From assembly GCF_964355755.1 (NCBI RefSeq), contig NC_092680.1, positions 15,539,001-15,603,000 on the forward strand: a DNA stretch of 64,000 nucleotides. The letters are read 5' to 3'. Position numbers and translations under genes: made by a program. The stretch comes from Antedon mediterranea. Its lineage: Eukaryota > Echinodermata > Crinoidea > Comatulida > Antedonidae. Shown here one piece after another: positions 2,033-33,306 of this stretch; the first letter of the stretch is position 1, and every line of letters begins with the position of its first letter. The notes beneath the pieces were generated by a model. It searched no databases. It was not told where the DNA came from and saw only the letters and a list, made by a program, of their open reading frames with translations.

Positions 2033-3239
2033 TTTGGATTTTCAAATAGTGTTTTGATATTAATTGATGCTCATATTGAGTAAAAATCAAATCATTTTAT
2101 TATTGATATATCATTTCATTGAAGCAAAAGAACTTTGTTCGAGATTTATTGGCAAGTAAACCAGACAAAATGTATGATCAGAAGGTGATTAAGGACCGTT
2201 ATACAAAAAAAGTTATCATTGACATAAAAAAATGTTGTAATGATTATTAGAACAGTATGTTAGAATACAACGATCAACAATATAATTCAAATGTGTTTTT
2301 TTTTTCTTTTTTTTTTTGACACTGAATATAAATAAAAGATTTGATTAAAATGCATTCTAATTACACGTTTTACATTAAAGCTCTTGGCTATATTACTATA
2401 ATGTTGTATAAATTGACGCAATTAACTATATATAGAACAATGTACTATGATATTATAGTCAATAAATCGATAAATTCTGACCTTTTTAGAATTTGCCTAT
2501 TCATTCATCTTGGTTTATTTCCAATGTATTTTGTTACATAGTTCTGATAATAAAGCAAAACATTTTGCATTTTACATAAAGTTGCCATAATTATTAAAAT
2601 AATACACAGAGGCTGTACAAGATAAAACTTAGTTTAAAAGGTGCTTTAGAGAAAATTCTTACTATCAAACAATAATTATGTATTTTGTAGAAGATTAGAT
2701 TATATCCAACAATACAAAGTTTAACTTCTGGTTTAATAGTGATTTGATTTTTTCTTTATTTCAGCATCATAAAATCAATTTACATAAAATACAATGAATA
2801 TACAGAAAACAAAAGATCAAAACATCAACAATATACAAACAGCGATTCCAAGTGCAAAAGGATTTTTTTTTTAACATTATAAGAATCATTTCTGTGATAG
2901 TTGTCATTTTGCAGAATTCAGTTACTGCTGTTTCTCCAAGCAGGCGCCTAACCAAAAAACAGTTATTTCAGCATTTAAGGTGTTCGGTCATGCATGAAAT
3001 ATTGCTGGTATTACATGTTTACTTGCATTAATCAATGTTTCGCCACCATCATGTAGCGAGCTAGATTAGTATGATGGTTTACTTGTTAACACTTCTAATC
3101 CGGTTACATTTAATTTATTCAATTTAAAGACTTGTCTCTCTTCAGGTTTTCTTCACCACTCAAAGTGTCAAAATAATAATGTTGTCAATAATTTGTCAAT
3201 TGTTTGACGGCTAAGGTAGTGGTTTCTTGCCAGAATTTT
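2033..3239. other. Noncoding, AT-rich
   Basis: Only short chance frames. The 66-codon frame at 2341 lacks an ATG start and has no recognisable domain. Confidence 0.6.
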
Positions 3240-5050
3240 AAATAAAGGGTTAAAATCATGGCATACAGTGCCAAGGGTTCAAATCCCAGCTTAGTACCAT
3301 TAAGGGTTCAATTCCTGGCATATAGTGCCAATGGTTCAAATCCCAGCTTAGTACCATGAAGGGTTCAATTCCTGGCATACAGTACCAAGGGTTCAATTCC
3401 TGGCATACAGTGCCAAGGGTTCAAATCCCAGCTTAGTACCAAGGGTTCAATTCCTGGCATACAGTGCCAAGGGTTCAAATCCCAGCTTAGTACCATGAAG
3501 GGTTCAATTCCTGGCATACAGTGCCAAGGGTTCAAATCCCAGCTTAATACCATGAAGGGTTCAATTCCTGGCATACAGTGCCAATGGTTCAAATCCCAGC
3601 TTAGTACCATGAAGGTTCAATTCCTGGCATACAGTGCCAAGGGTTCAAATCCCAGCTTAGTACCATGAAGGGTTCCATTCCTGGTATACAGTGCCAAGGG
3701 TTCAAATCCCAGCTTAGTACCATGAAGGGTTCAATTTCTGCATACAGTGCCAAGGGTTTAAATCCCAGCTTAGTACCATGAAGGGTTCAATTCCTGGCAT
3801 ACAGTGCCAAGGGTTCAAATCCCAGCTTAGTACCATGAAGGGTTCAATTCCTGGCATACAGTGCCAAGGGTTCAAATCCCAGCTTAGTACCATGAAGGGT
3901 TCAATTCCTGGCATACAGTGCCAAGGGTTCAAATCCCAGCTTAGTACCATGAAGGGTTCAATTCCTGGCATACAGTGCCAATGGTTCAAATCCCAGCTTA
4001 GTACCATGAAGGGTTCAATTCCTGGCATACAGTGCCAAGTGTTCAAATCCCAGCTTAGTACCATAAAGGGTTCAATTCCTGGCATAGAGTGCCAAGGGTT
4101 CAAATCCCAACTTAGTACCATGAAGGGTTCAATTCCTGGCATACAACGTGCCAAGGGTTCAAATCCCAGCTTAGTACCATGAAGGGTTCAATTCCTGGCA
4201 TACAGTGCCAAGGGTTCAAATCCCAGCTTAGTACCAAGGGTTCAATTCCTGGCATAGAGTGCCAAGGGTTAAAATCCCAGCTTAGTACCATGAAGGGTTC
4301 AATTCCTGGCATACAGTGCCAAGGGTTCAAATCCCAGCTTAGTACCATGAAGGGTTCACTTCCTGGCATACAGTACCAATGGTTCAATTCCTGGCATACA
4401 GTGCCAAGGGTTCAAATCTCAGCTTAGTACCATGAAGGGTTCAATTCCTGGCATAACAGTGCCAAGGGTTCAAATCCCAGCTTAGTACCATGAAGGGTTC
4501 AATTCTTGGCATACAGTGCCAAGGGTTCAAATCCCAGCTTGGTACCATGAAGGGTTCAATTCCTGGCATACAGTGCCAAGGGTTCAAATCCCAGCTTATA
4601 GTACCATGAAGGGTTCAATTCCTGGCATACAGTGCCAAGGGTTCAAATCCCAGCTTAGTACCATGAAGGGTTTAATTCCTGGCATACAGTGCCAAGGGTT
4701 CAAATCCCAGCTTAGTACCATGAAGGGTTCAATTCCTGGCATACAGTGCCAAGGATTCAAATCCCAGCTTAGTACCAAGGGTTCAATTCCTGGTATCAGA
4801 TGCACCAAGGCTTCATATCCTAGCATACAGTATCAAGGGTTCGAATCCCAGCTTAGTCCCAAGTGTTCAATTCCTGGTATCAGATGCACCAACACTTCAT
4901 ATCCTAGCTTAGTCCTGGTATCAGATTTAGTTGTACAGTATCAAGGCTTCGTATCCTAGCATACAGTATCGAGGGTTCAATCCCAGCTTAGTATACTAAG
5001 GGTTCAAATCCAAGCTTAGTACTAAGGGTCAAATTCAAGATTAGTACAGA
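3240..5050. repeat. 57-bp tandem satellite, about 31 units, two Pol III B-box words per unit
   Basis: A head-to-tail array of a 57-bp unit. The unit is itself an ancient dimer of a 28-29 bp block, since both halves start AAGGGTTCAA. Each unit contains GGTTCAATTCC and GGTTCAAATCC, both exact matches to the tRNA B-box consensus, and a small hairpin TGGCA-tacag-TGCCA. Because 57 is a multiple of 3, several frames stay open on both strands (for example MKGSIPGIQCQGFKSQLST per unit on the plus strand). These frames are by-products. Units at both ends are more degenerate (from about 4790 onward), as in unequal-exchange arrays. Confidence 0.92.
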
Positions 5051-5204
5051 CGTTTCTGATAACAGTGCTTGTTCATCATCAGCTAATATATATTATTTCT
5101 AATAAAATATTATCATTGTTTATTAATTAATAAAACAGTTATTATTTCTAAGTTATGCATTTATGAAATGTAAAGTTTTGATGTTGTTAGATAATTACTG
5201 CAAC

Positions 5205-6900
5205 TAGACAATTTAGTTTGACAACATGTGTGTGACAGTGTGGTTGCTTTGTTTGTGTATTGTTCAAGATTGGTATTGTTCTTTTTTTATTGAGTGTTTT
5301 TATTCCTGCCATCTCTATTACAATATATATTTCACGACGGTTTTATTTTACAAGACAGATGGTCAAAACTAACTCTATTTCATATTCAGTAACTGACCAA
5401 TATTTCTTCCTAAAGAAACCAGGACTTAAATGCCTCAGGTCATAGAAAATGTGTTGTAGTCAACAGCTTCTCTGTGAATGGGATAAAATTAAGTGAATCC
5501 CTGAACAAAGAGGAAAAGAACAAAGGCCTCGTCGCCTAATAGGTGGCTGACACACAGGGTTGTATTAGCTTTTGTTTATTTCCATAGAATTCATATCTTT
5601 TATAAATTTGTGTTTTTTTAAAAGTTATTTTCTATAAAGATGACATAGTGGACATTTACAAGAGAAAAATACTCCCACTTTTGCTAAAAATGTTATAAAA
5701 ACATCTTAAATCCGATTTTGATTTTGTAATTTTTGTAAGAAAGTTTATTGTTATTAATATTAATAATAATAATAATATTGTTGTCATAGAGAACTTTAAA
5801 CATTATAATTAAAAATGAGATTAATTTAATATTATTGTTATTTTCAATCTCATTTTCAAGAAAATGTTTATCTTTTTGATTCAGAGTAGGAGTTGTATGT
5901 ACCTAAAAAGGTAAACACTTCCACATGTGTTATAACAACATCTAAAATCCGATTTTGATTTTGGTAATTTTTTTAAGAAATGTTATTGTTAATAATAATA
6001 ATAATAATATTTTTGTCATAGATAACTTTAAAGCCCCCTTCCCTACGTTTTTTAGATCTAATTTAAGATCACAAACTATATTTAATGTAAAAATAATACT
6101 ATATGGTCCTATTGCGATAACTTTTTTCGTCTTTAAACGGTTAAAAATGTGAAAAATAAGTTGATCCTAATAATTATAGCGGCCCGCTATAAATCCCAAA
6201 ATACATTGCGCGCGGATTGATATTTTTGTTTTTCACCTGTAATTCGCCCACTCTTCGATCAATCGTGAGGCCAAAACAAATGGAAGACTCCCTAACTTTT
6301 CAGCAAAAATACCGGGTTTTCCCCAATTTGTATCAAAAATAGAAAGACAATTAATGCAGCAACTATACAACGTCAGGCTAGGTATATATGTTTACCAGCT
6401 AGGCCTACAAAACTAAGCCTAGCTAGGCTAGGCCTAAGACTGTCCACGAGAGGTCGATCGCCGCGAGCTACTTAGGTAGTGCATTGTTTCTCACTTTTTA
6501 TCATAATTTACCATAAAACGTACATTTAAGACAAGGAATGACATGGTTTAATGTTTTTAAAGTGATATATGTATTATTTTCCAAAAAAACGTCCAAAATT
6601 GCAGGGAAGGGGTGTTTAAACTTTATAATTAAAAAATGAGAATAATTTAATATTATTATTTTAATTCAATCTCATTGTCAAAAAATGTTTATGAAATATA
6701 TATTGTAATGGAGATGGCAAGAATAAAAACACTCAATAAAAAAAGAACAATACCAATCTAGAACAATACACATATAAAGCAACCACACTGTCACACACAC
6801 ATTGTCAAACTGAATCAAAATGTATCTTTTTGATTCAGAGTAGGAGTTTTGTATGTACCTACCTTTATTAACCCCAGGGGAATGCTCAAAATAAGACTTC
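5205..6900. repeat. Nest of local direct and inverted duplications
   Basis: 5207-5332 reappears inverted at 6694-6822. 5696-5800 is repeated directly at 5937-6035. 5800-5905 is repeated at 6615-6860 with the inverted piece inserted inside it. No gene is seen here; the 61-codon frame at 5260 belongs to the inverted repeat. Confidence 0.7.
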
Positions 6901-7919: not shown

Positions 7920-9172
7920 ATAATAAAGAAGCTCAACCACAACAACAGGCTCATCCACCACAACAACAGGCTCATCCACCACAACAACAGGCTCATCCAC
8001 CACAACAAGAAGCTCACCCACAACAACCAGAAACTCACCCACAACAACCAGAAGCTCAACCACCACAACAAGAAGCTAACCCACAACAACAAGAAGCTAA
8101 CCCACAGTAACAAGCTAACCCAAAACAAGAAGCTCATCCAAAACAAGAAGCTCACCCACCACAATAAGAAGCTCACCCACCACAACAAGAAGCTAACCCA
8201 CAACAACAAGCTAACCCACAACAACAAGAAGTTAACCCACAACAACAAGGAGCTCACGAACAACAACAAGAAGCTCAACCACAACAACCCAACAAGAAGA
8301 AGCTCATTCACCACAACAAGAAGCTCACCCACAACAACAAGAAGCTAACCCACAACAAGAAGCTCAACCACAACAACCCAACAAGAAGAAGCTCATTCAC
8401 CACAACAACAAGCTAACCCACAACAAGAAGCTCATCCAAAACAAGAAGCTCACCCACCACAATAAGAAGCTCACCCACCACAACAAGAAGCTAACCCAAC
8501 AAGACGCTAACCCACAACAACAAGAAGCTAACCCACAACAACAAGAAGCTAACCCAAAACAACAAGAAGCTAACCCACAACAACAAGAAGCTCAACCACA
8601 ACAACCCAACAAGAAGAAGCTCATTCACCACAACAAGAAGCTCACCCACAACAACAAGAAGCTAACCCACAACAACCAGAAGCTCAACCACCACAAGAAG
8701 CTCATCCAAAACAAGAAGCTCACCCACCACAATAAGAAGCTCACCCACCACAACAAGAAGCTAACCCACAACAAAAAGCTCAACCACCACAACAAGAAGC
8801 TCATCCACCACAACAAGAAGCTCACCCAACAAGAAGCTAACCCACAACAACAAGAAGCTCATCCACAACTCACCCAACAAGAAGCTAACCCTTGACAACC
8901 AGAAGCTCAACCACAACAACAAGAAGCTCACCCACAACAACAAGAAGCTCAACCAACAAGAAGCTAACCCACAACAACAAGAAGCTAACCCACAACAAGG
9001 AGCTCACTAACAACAACAAGAAGCTAACCCACAACAAGAAGTTCAACCACAACAACCCAACAACAAGAAGCTCACACGCAACAACCAGAAGCTCAACCAC
9101 CACAACAAGAAGCTAACCCACAACAACAAGAAGTCAACCCACAACAAGAAGCTCATCCAAAACAAGTGATTT
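7920..9172. repeat. A/C-rich minisatellite, mostly 18- and 21-bp units
   Basis: Tandem variants of a core like caacaagaagctcacccac. Units differ by 3 bp (CAA gain or loss), so reading frames persist on both strands: Pro/Gln/Glu/Ala/His-rich on plus, Leu/Trp/Ser-rich on minus. The plus strand is nearly free of T and poor in G. No start context, splice site or flanking coding sequence supports translation. Confidence 0.9.
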
Positions 9173-31292: not shown

Positions 31293-33306
31293 CTGAACGA
31301 AATTTTAAAGTAAAATCATTAATGATATAAGAAAAATGGAAAATGTATTTAAAGAACAGCGTTTTAATTCAAAGATTTTATCTATTTGAAAAAAAAAACT
31401 TCTATCAACGCCAAAGTTTACAACTAAATTGTGTACAGTATTATTTTTAAATGTAAAACAATATGTATTTATATAAATTAAAAATGTAGGTGGATCTCAA
31501 TGTAGAAACATGTACAAAATGAAATAAGCAAAAAGCTAAATAAAAACGTAAAACAGCCAGAAATGTAACAGTTCTTCTGGGCCAGACTAACCAATCATTA
31601 TACCAGGGACACTGAATTGAAATTTATATTTATACTGGGTAACCTCTTCAGTCAAAGACTGGTCTCCCAGAGGGCCCAGTTGGTGATCAGTGGCTGTGAT
31701 GTACTAATACACCGGGGTAACCCCCTACTCGTCTCGAAAGATGTACTAGGTTCTTTAAAGCGCACACGAGCTAGATGTGTACACTGGACCTACAGTTTAT
31801 AGTCCTTATCCGAGAAGACTCGTTCTACCACCAGAACCATGGAGTGAGTGAGCCTCGAACCCCTGCCGATGTTATGGCACTTTATACTTAATGAATTTGT
31901 GTAATTGTGTAGGTTAGTATGTATTATTTTATTTGATTTACTTTTTAACTGCTCTTTGCTAAAGATCTCAAGTTCATCACATGGTGTGTTCAAGTCTCCA
32001 TGGACCTCTTCAAACCCAACGGATTTCAACAGCTCAGTGTTTTCTTCTAGTGTCAACTGGTTATGTATTTTGTGTTCGTAGCCCTTGATATTAAAAGTAA
32101 AATTAAGCCGTTAATTATTAGATGTGAAATTGGTTGCATAGGCGTCTAAAAGCTGAAATATAATTAGATTTTTATTGTATTCACTATCTTGAATATATTT
32201 ATTGAAATGTTAGCAGACGTCTAATTTTGAAAACGTTTTGACACAAACACAAAAAACATGTTTCACCACCAGATTTATAATTGACACGAGATTAGATTAT
32301 CTAACATGTGGGAGTAACACTGTAGTAGGCCTATTCTAAGAGTGTTAGACTTACTTTTAGGTGTTGCTTCCATTTTTCATGATTCTCTAAAAAATATGGA
32401 AGTTCTGTTTTGCCGGAACCTAAAAGCTGGTGGCGTGGACCAGCAAACAAAAGAAAACACGTTCCATTTTCGCTTAGACATTCATACATACTCTGGAATG
32501 CTTTTCTTTTTTCTTCCACCCAATGCAGTACAAGTACAGACAAAATCTTATTGAATGCACCTCTCCAGTTTGGAAATATTTGCAGGCAGTTGGTGATGTC
32601 TGCAATTTCGTATGACAAGTTTGTACGTAATGGTTGGTACTTCTGCCTTGCAACATGAATCATATCTCTTGATTTGTCAAAACCTAAAGAAATGTTTCTC
32701 AATTCATTTTTAACCGAATTTTGACATTGTCATTCTTGTCTTATTCTGGAATGATTTTAATTACATCGTTTTGTGTCCAGTCCTAAAATCCTTAACCCTT
32801 GTTACTAGACTTTATAATTTAAATAATTTGCAAAGTCAAAATGTTTTTTAAAATGTTACCAACTTTTTTTGTCTTTGGAGTTAACCACCTTTATTCATTC
32901 AATGTTTCATTAACAATAATTAAATACTATCTATACATTTTTTCGTTATTTTCTGATCTTTTTTATCCTCTTTATTATCTATATTTTAATATTTTGGCCT
33001 ATACATATACTTTAGATTATTACTATCTGTCCAATATTGTCCTAATTTATACATTGTTCTTTCTATTACACTATCTTAAAAATATAGGTGGTCATTTGAT
33101 AGTCAATCATTCGTAGAATTTAACCACTCACCTGTTGCTGAGTTTGCGCTGCCTGCCATATCATACACAATATCACCGCTTCCGCAACCAACATCAAGTA
33201 TGTTGTCATAGTCATTGACTGACAAATAGGGTTCCAAATAAAGTTTAAACGCAACCTGTTGCCTTGCTATAGTTTTCGAATACAGAGTAGCTTCGTCTAC
33301 GTTCAT
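31108..33306 (-). CDS. JHAMT-like class I SAM-dependent methyltransferase, four exons
   Basis: On the minus strand, exons 33132-33306, 32355-32683, 31942-32083 and 31108-31292 join in phase to give a 276-residue protein, the usual length for this family. Residues 36-45 are SAM-binding motif I (ILDVGCGSGD), and D61 in GFDKS is the acidic ribose-binding residue after strand 2. The LHWV segment and the C-terminal pattern NYVPEQYRSEIVHDATEW are typical of juvenile-hormone-acid-methyltransferase-like proteins. Outside insects these proteins occur as families of unknown substrate, so a juvenile hormone role should not be assumed. No signal peptide or membrane segment is seen, so it is probably cytosolic. 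Exon 3 is open past its donor only because an intronic SINE reads in frame. Exon 4 restores the conserved C-terminus. A candidate polyadenylation signal lies about 40 bp after the stop. Confidence 0.88.
31488..31602. mobile_element. Diverged copy of the 9.88-kb repeat family
   Basis: Shares gtggatctcaatgtagaaac, caaaaagctaaataaaaacg and cagccagaaa with the 9.88-kb copy in the same orientation as the plus-strand text there. The CTGATGA core is lost. It lies in intron 3 of the methyltransferase gene, next to the SINE. Confidence 0.5.
31640..31886 (-). mobile_element. 5'-truncated second copy of the same tRNA-derived SINE
   Basis: The minus strand shares the B-box region (ggttcgaggc), gtcttctcggataaggacta, ccagtgtacac and gtagggggttaccccggtg with the copy at 50.83 kb. 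The A box is missing. It lies in intron 3 of the methyltransferase gene in the same orientation and reads in frame from exon 3, which makes a false longer ORF. Confidence 0.8.
31942..32083 (-). CDS. Methyltransferase exon 3
   Basis: Acceptor aatatcaag. The exon encodes ENTELLKSVGFEEVHGDL and LEIFSKEQLK, matching the family's late beta strand and the helix before the C-terminal cap. I chose donor gtaaat at 31941. It gives the phase needed for exon 4 and stops before the downstream SINE. Confidence 0.8.
32355..32683 (-). CDS. Methyltransferase exon 2 (Rossmann core)
   Basis: A 329-bp exon between acceptor tttctttag and donor gtaagt. It encodes GFDKSRDMIHVA, then IADITNC (motif II region), the VLHWVEE block and the NGTCFLLFAG strand. 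It ends in phase 0. Confidence 0.9.
33132..33306 (-). CDS. Methyltransferase exon 1 (SAM motif I)
   Basis: ATG at 33306. The exon encodes an N-terminal helix with YSKTIARQQ, then motif I (ILDVGCGSGD), which binds the SAM methionine part. It ends at donor gtgagt, phase 1. Confidence 0.88.

Follow-up and report, generated by a model that had tools for sequence, protein, structure and literature searches.

A tandem array in the 64-kb stretch of DNA analysed here (the window) is packed with copies of the Pol III B box, and it raises the question of where these boxes came from and whether anything keeps them in place. The original prediction, made from the letters of the window, had offered two answers: sites that bind TFIIIC without giving RNA and act as a boundary, or a satellite born from the T-arm and 3' ends of tRNAs. 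Our analysis supports the second answer in a modified form, the source being most likely a tRNA-derived SINE. We put the probability that the array is a SINE-derived minisatellite at roughly 0.7, and on sequence comparison it is most likely an old, dimerised expansion of a SINE T-arm.

Structure of the array and its B boxes

We used TRF and wrap-around alignment to define the array. It was found on the plus strand at 3242-5047, and its predicted extent, dimeric 57-bp unit and regular spacing were all confirmed. The unit is composed of AAGGGTTCAATTCCTGGCATACAGTGCC and AAGGGTTCAAATCCCAGCTTAGTACCATG, half-units of 28 and 29 bp, and about 32 dimers (34 alignment rows), with indels inside the array, cover 1.8 kb. 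A homogeneous core (3245-4776, plus strand; 28 alignment rows, part of them split by half-unit deletions) is followed by a right end (4777-5047, plus strand; 5 rows, the last ~270 bp) that is strongly diverged from the core in the wrap-around alignment. The array has at least the four tandem units by which a SINE-derived satellite is recognised.

Exact matches to the B-box consensus GGTTCRANNCC were found 47 times in the window, all of them on the plus strand and inside the array (3276-5011), with none on the minus strand. When one or two mismatches were allowed, the number in the array rose to 58 and 63, respectively. The array of B boxes is therefore real, while the "about 60 perfect" copies that had been predicted come down to 47 exact ones (58 at up to one mismatch). 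Among 200,000 shuffled circular 57-mers, 173 carried at least one B box and a single one carried two, so the B-box motif within one unit exceeds chance. As the words were copied from one another, the independent evidence amounts to one or two occurrences, not 47.

We then looked for A boxes at 34-65 bp upstream of exact B boxes. The closest candidates in this range had two mismatches: TGGCATAGAGTG at 4080 and 4250 (46 bp) and AATCCCAGCTTGG at 4530 (51 bp). The sole perfect match in the window to the long A-box form TRGCNNAGYNNNGG is TAGCTTAGTCCTGG at 4905-4918 (plus strand); it lies in the diverged right end, and an exact B box follows it at 4974, a distance of 69 bp. This spacing is within the yeast A-box to B-box range of 32-93 bp given in the available text of PMC12409998, and 4905/4974 may thus represent a relic or a chance promoter. 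The predicted lack of A boxes at tRNA spacing is therefore borne out in the core, with the right end as a partial exception.

No tRNA gene was found in the window by ARAGORN (bacterial code), and Rfam gave nothing at gathering score across the window and no tRNA up to E 10 in 3050-5250. The tRNA-like fold with A and B boxes that marks a Pol III tRNA gene was not found at the array. The hairpin that had been taken to add to a tRNA-like look can indeed form in RNA, but it is unexceptional against shuffled sequences, with z -1.6 for the 57-nt unit (13 of 200 shuffles equal or better) and z -1.9 for 114 nt (6 of 200). A tRNA-like fold for the array was rejected on these grounds, together with the absence of an Rfam tRNA match.

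Variation at the B-box positions

To compare B-box positions with the remainder of the unit we counted substitutions in the alignment rows, with one short leading row omitted. In the 28 rows of the core, 13 of 599 B-box positions were substituted vs 12 of 928 elsewhere (Fisher p 0.22). For consensus-defining positions the counts were 12 of 489 vs 13 of 1038 elsewhere (p 0.13), with 12 of the 13 core B-box substitutions falling on such positions. The core B boxes are thus no less variable than the remainder of the unit. The five rows of the right end showed the opposite direction without reaching significance, both for all B-box positions (20/107 vs 41/158, p 0.18) and for the constrained ones (15/87 vs 46/178, p 0.12).

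Occurrence of the unit in the genome and its flanks

The genome searched comprised 354 Mb on 18 contigs, and the DNA searches scored the best candidates. All 16 matches of a two-unit query were at the array locus, as were all 25 genome matches of half-unit 1 (26 bp) and 27 of the 28 matches of half-unit 2 (23 bp, up to 3 mismatches). Counted genome-wide, the array unit occupied one locus among the candidates scored. The remaining half-unit 2 match, at C4:2104569 with 2 mismatches, coincided with the B box in a SINE-like tRNA head, where an A-box-like stretch is followed by the B box and then the 3' part. A related head is carried by C7 (L022), and neither of the two was called by Rfam's tRNA model. 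Because the C4 head was found using half-unit 2 as a query, its spacer match is no independent test.

The B-box core GGGTTCAAATCCCAGC, at up to one mismatch, was present in 64 places, 28 in the array and 36 outside it, with none in the reversed control. Of the outside places 23 were read: three were in tRNA genes called by ARAGORN, two were tRNA-Pro-like by eye and at least six were, by eye, in SINE-like heads, some being ambiguous. Full B boxes seldom stood in close tandem pairs: the genome gave 40 matches, of which the array accounted for 35, and the reversed control gave none. In a separate search, 58 of the 62 tRNA-family matches listed (63 of 35,763 first-look candidates scored) belonged to a dense tRNA array at C8:23582228-23673161, many of its members being spaced ~175 bp; in the 2 kb of it that were read (L010) ARAGORN called nine tRNA-Lys(TTT).

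The left flank (2300-3241) was unique apart from ~2740-2852, a short dispersed fragment with 20 of its 31 other matches on C3, at 19.6-25.1 Mb. Just right of the array, 5211-5334 recurs inverted at 6692-6815, ~1.4 kb away, with 94% identity. Farther right, ~6016-6391 is a high-copy dispersed element of ~370 bp, of which 39 copies, 94-96% identical, were listed on 10 contigs (best 40 of 1750 candidates scored).

Repeated B-box segments in a tRNA-derived SINE

A process by which satellites arise from SINEs is present in this genome: copies of a tRNA-derived SINE, here named SINE-B, carry from 2 to ~34 B-box units. In a search for three GGTTCRA words with gaps of 14-24 bp we obtained 579 matches vs 279 in the reversed control. 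The 100 of these 579 that were listed came from contigs C1 to C3 and represented 10 loci by our count, of which five (L074-L078) were SINE-B-like, with a 23-24-bp unit near GGGTTCAATCCTGACCTAGTGCCA. In L078, whose body was the query that gathered the SINE-B family, a head (nhmmer E 2.5e-21) and a body (1.8e-54) bracket 4.1 identical 24-bp units. L077 has ~10 units between a head (1.5e-24) and a body (5.7e-38), L075 a 34-unit array plus a SINE-B body (1e-26), and L074 a SINE-B head (2.1e-10) plus 3 units, all by nhmmer, while L076 has 13 units resembling those of SINE-B. In both L077 and L078 the B-box array lies within a tRNA-derived SINE, with the head upstream and the body downstream.

To sample SINE-B copies we used the 3' body of L078 alone as a query, which makes the sampling independent of the number of B-box units, and read all of the best 40 of 1860 candidates. 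With the query's own locus excluded, a multi-unit B-box segment was found in 4 of 39 copies: five units each in L091 and L096, and two each in L103 and L115, those of L103 being recognised by eye and not by TRF. L100, where two B-box-like words surround an inverted repeat, was excluded from this count. The segment that is tandemly repeated in SINE-B copies is 24 bp long and bears the B box. When the 24 loci L081-L104 were analysed with TRF, periods of at least 10 bp within the SINE were found only at the B-box segment and in one A-rich tail (L093); a tandem repeat in L098 was located in the upstream A-rich flank.

The SINE-B consensus contains two copies of the octamer CCAGGGTT, set exactly 24 bp apart, with the B box and the 3' part of the tRNA between them, and the usual period of the SINE-B arrays equals this spacing. 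Such a direct repeat would explain slippage at the B-box segment. In many of the SINE-B copies with a single unit, at least one octamer is altered. Another abundant SINE, SINE-A, has a consensus without such a direct repeat. With the best 40 of 2510 SINE-A candidates scored, extra B boxes were found in 0 of the 20 copies read; since the query included the head, this sample is biased against expansions and was not used as a control. Nothing in the window was recognised as SINE-A (best E 4.4).

At C6:848858-848893 (L071) a tRNA-like head, which ARAGORN did not call, shows a single duplication of its T-arm and 3' acceptor part (25 bp), resembling an initial stage of the same expansion process in another family. 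On the minus strand at C11:18255400-18256113 (L069) we found a minisatellite with T-arm-like units, in which a 27-bp unit (AGTGATTTAAGGGCCTGGGTTCAAGTT, 21.6 copies) adjoins a 26-bp unit (GGTTCAAGTCCTGATTTAAGCTCCTA, 4.9 copies).

Comparison of the array units and edges with SINEs

The spacer of half-unit 1 was found to resemble that of SINE-B (shuffle p 0.0006, uncorrected for the handful of families compared; equalled by 1 of 20,707 window segments). Spacers of six other B-box-like minisatellite units scored lower, with a best p of 0.019. For half-unit 2 the likeness to SINE-B was weak (p 0.08; equalled by 564 of 20,707 window segments), and the spacers of the two half-units were weakly alike (p 0.09). 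A profile built from 11 SINE heads placed 22 array units over the inclusion threshold (best E 0.00077) and gave nothing below E 4 elsewhere in the window, a result with some circularity, most of the heads having been chosen with a B-box core that came from the array. Against the SINE-B model, the best-matching array position was the unit at 4967-5004, in the right end, though the match is weak (nhmmer E 0.96). The array unit is 28/29 bp and not 24 bp long, and the comparisons singled out no exact parent SINE.

At the array edges nhmmer detected no significant SINE head or body. On the left, 3197-3246 (plus strand) may be what is left of a SINE head's A-box half, with the start of TAGTGGTTTCTTGCCA lying 30 bp upstream of the first GGGTT. 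When this edge was anchored to 7 heads, the null segments that scored as well numbered 429 of 17,670 by the sum, 2,780 of 17,670 by the maximum and 281 of 17,670 for the best single head, and the alignment scores fell below those among the heads themselves. In local alignment, 118 of 6,186 segments were as good for the C4 head, 733 of 6,186 for the SINE-B head and 2,390 of 6,186 for the SINE-A head. Although inspection by eye and some of the tests hinted at a SINE head on the left, we did not accept one; nhmmer gave no SINE-B match at 3197-3246. A SINE-B body at the right edge was also rejected, with 2,688 of 6,184 segments as good.

Origin of the array

From the spacer similarity we infer that the array started within such a SINE, the bracketing parts of which were not detected at its edges. 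In a tRNA-derived SINE, short direct repeats would flank the Pol III B box (T-arm) together with the 3' part of the tRNA. Duplication of the B-box segment would follow from slippage or unequal exchange involving these repeats, the simplest cause; subsequent exchange would lengthen and homogenise the array, and a variant unit pair would then spread as the 57-bp dimer. The B boxes would be inherited from the SINE promoter and passively multiplied, and passive multiplication would explain their presence. A SINE source is favoured because the same genome holds intermediate stages, with 1, 2, 4, 5, ~10 and ~34 units.

The array could instead be an ordinary minisatellite that grew from a chance B-box word, its likeness to SINE T-arm units being coincidental. 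Such an origin would sit well with the abundance of GGTTCRA triplets even in the reversed control, with the five of the 10 loci among the triplet matches listed that are not SINE-B-like, and with the undetected bracketing SINE. We nevertheless regard it as unlikely, given that the half-unit 1 spacer resembles SINE-B outside the B box, that full B boxes seldom occur as close tandem pairs (35 of the 40 matches belong to the array, with 0 in the reversed control) and that just 173 of 200,000 shuffled units contained a B box. The unit could also be derived directly from the 3' end of a true tRNA gene and not from a SINE, and GGGTTCAATTCCCAGC is present in tRNA-Gly and tRNA-Asp genes of this genome. 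In the tRNA genes read, however, the sequences after the T-arm (CGATGCA, CAGGGAG) are by eye unlike the array spacers, while the SINE-B segment fits half-unit 1 and the window has no tRNA gene by ARAGORN (bacterial code), which makes this descent highly improbable. A coding repeat was rejected. Although the 57 bp of the unit equal 19 codons, with an open frame that reads KGSIPGIQCQGFKSQLSTM on the plus strand and a longest uninterrupted stretch of 157 aa, that frame is broken again and again by 1- and 2-bp indels. The minus frame is open over an equal length (157 aa), so the openness follows from the unit, and we give coding hardly any credence.

The boundary reading treats the array as ETC-like: its many B boxes would bind TFIIIC without Pol III and form a chromatin boundary, and selection would keep them. 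The 47 exact B boxes in 1.8 kb and a core without an A-box match under 2 mismatches at 34-65 bp are what it would predict, as are the slightly less variable B-box positions of the right end (p 0.12-0.18). In the available text of PMC12409998 the B box is described as a high-affinity site, on account of which TFIIIC binding to the array is possible, and ETC sites are described as bearing B-box motifs without TFIIIB or Pol III. In the core, however, B-box positions change no more slowly than the remainder (13/599 vs 12/928, the direction being towards faster), 12 of the 13 substitutions hit consensus-defining positions, and the same expansion is seen in ordinary SINE copies, so that selection is unnecessary as an explanation. 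These results lend no support to the predicted boundary and, in the core, show the divergence of B-box positions that had been named as counting against it; an ETC-like array is very unlikely overall. A broader version would have SINE promoters give rise, time and again, to dense B-box arrays on which TFIIIC is sequestered or anchored at new sites, giving local platforms without Pol III transcription, some of which, such as the 47-box array, could act on neighbouring chromatin. No single conserved box would be needed there, since the number of boxes would matter and not their identity; we consider this a long shot.

Comparison with known systems

With a SINE origin, the array would join the SINE-derived satellites (sSats) known in squamate reptiles (Vassetzky et al. 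2023, PMC10702118). According to the available text of that work, in squamate sSats, as in our reading of the array, a portion of a tRNA-derived SINE is repeated in tandem, and the main snake sSat unit takes in the 3' portion of the head, where box B lies, together with some of the body. Homogeneity is greater in longer loci, and alternating dimeric patterns are reported. SINEs with short (~30 nt) internal duplications, reported by others and cited there, correspond to the step visible in single SINE-B copies (PMC10702118). There are also differences: the unit here is 24-29 bp vs 67-143 nt in squamate sSats, which come from other SINE families, and the SINE terminus, kept by most squamate sSats, is unrecognised in the window array (PMC10702118, available text).

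Other tandem families have been attributed to a tRNA-related SINE-like region, namely Satellite 1 of Xenopus laevis and Hy/Pol III of Hydromantes, the latter with a unit of ~200 nt, unlike the 24-29 bp here (PMC9659126, available text). The tRNA origin of Hy/Pol III has been questioned because it is without box B (PMC10702118, available text). Alu minisatellites and a mouse repeat from SINE B1 are, as here, expansions inside a SINE but involve other SINEs and other segments (PMC9659126, available text). ETC sites of yeast and mammals share with the array B-box motifs without a complete Pol III promoter; they are defined by TFIIIC occupancy, whereas the array is known from sequence alone and its core has no sign of constraint (PMC12409998, available text). 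In the titles and abstracts of the literature searched, where subscription journals are thinly covered, we found no 24-29-bp B-box minisatellites.

The array would add a case to the known SINE-derived satellites and be set apart by its short unit and the visible direct repeat. One genome here gives a series from a single SINE to a 34-unit array, together with a candidate sequence cause, the 8-bp direct repeat around the B box. This bears on a question left open by the squamate work, the authors of which, in its available text, were uncertain whether SINE-derived satellites are restricted to squamates (PMC10702118). Natural arrays of 2 to ~60 B boxes also provide material for studying TFIIIC dosage at one site.

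Other features of the window

A second minisatellite was found at 7936-9159, with a 21/42-bp period; it is ACCACAACAAGAAGCTC-rich and has long open stretches on both strands. Twenty ORFs of the window were compared with Pfam and a match was obtained for one only, an exon-like ORF on the minus strand (32334-32729) with a methyltransferase domain (Methyltransf_11, E 2.2e-08), the solved relatives of which include juvenile hormone acid methyltransferases.
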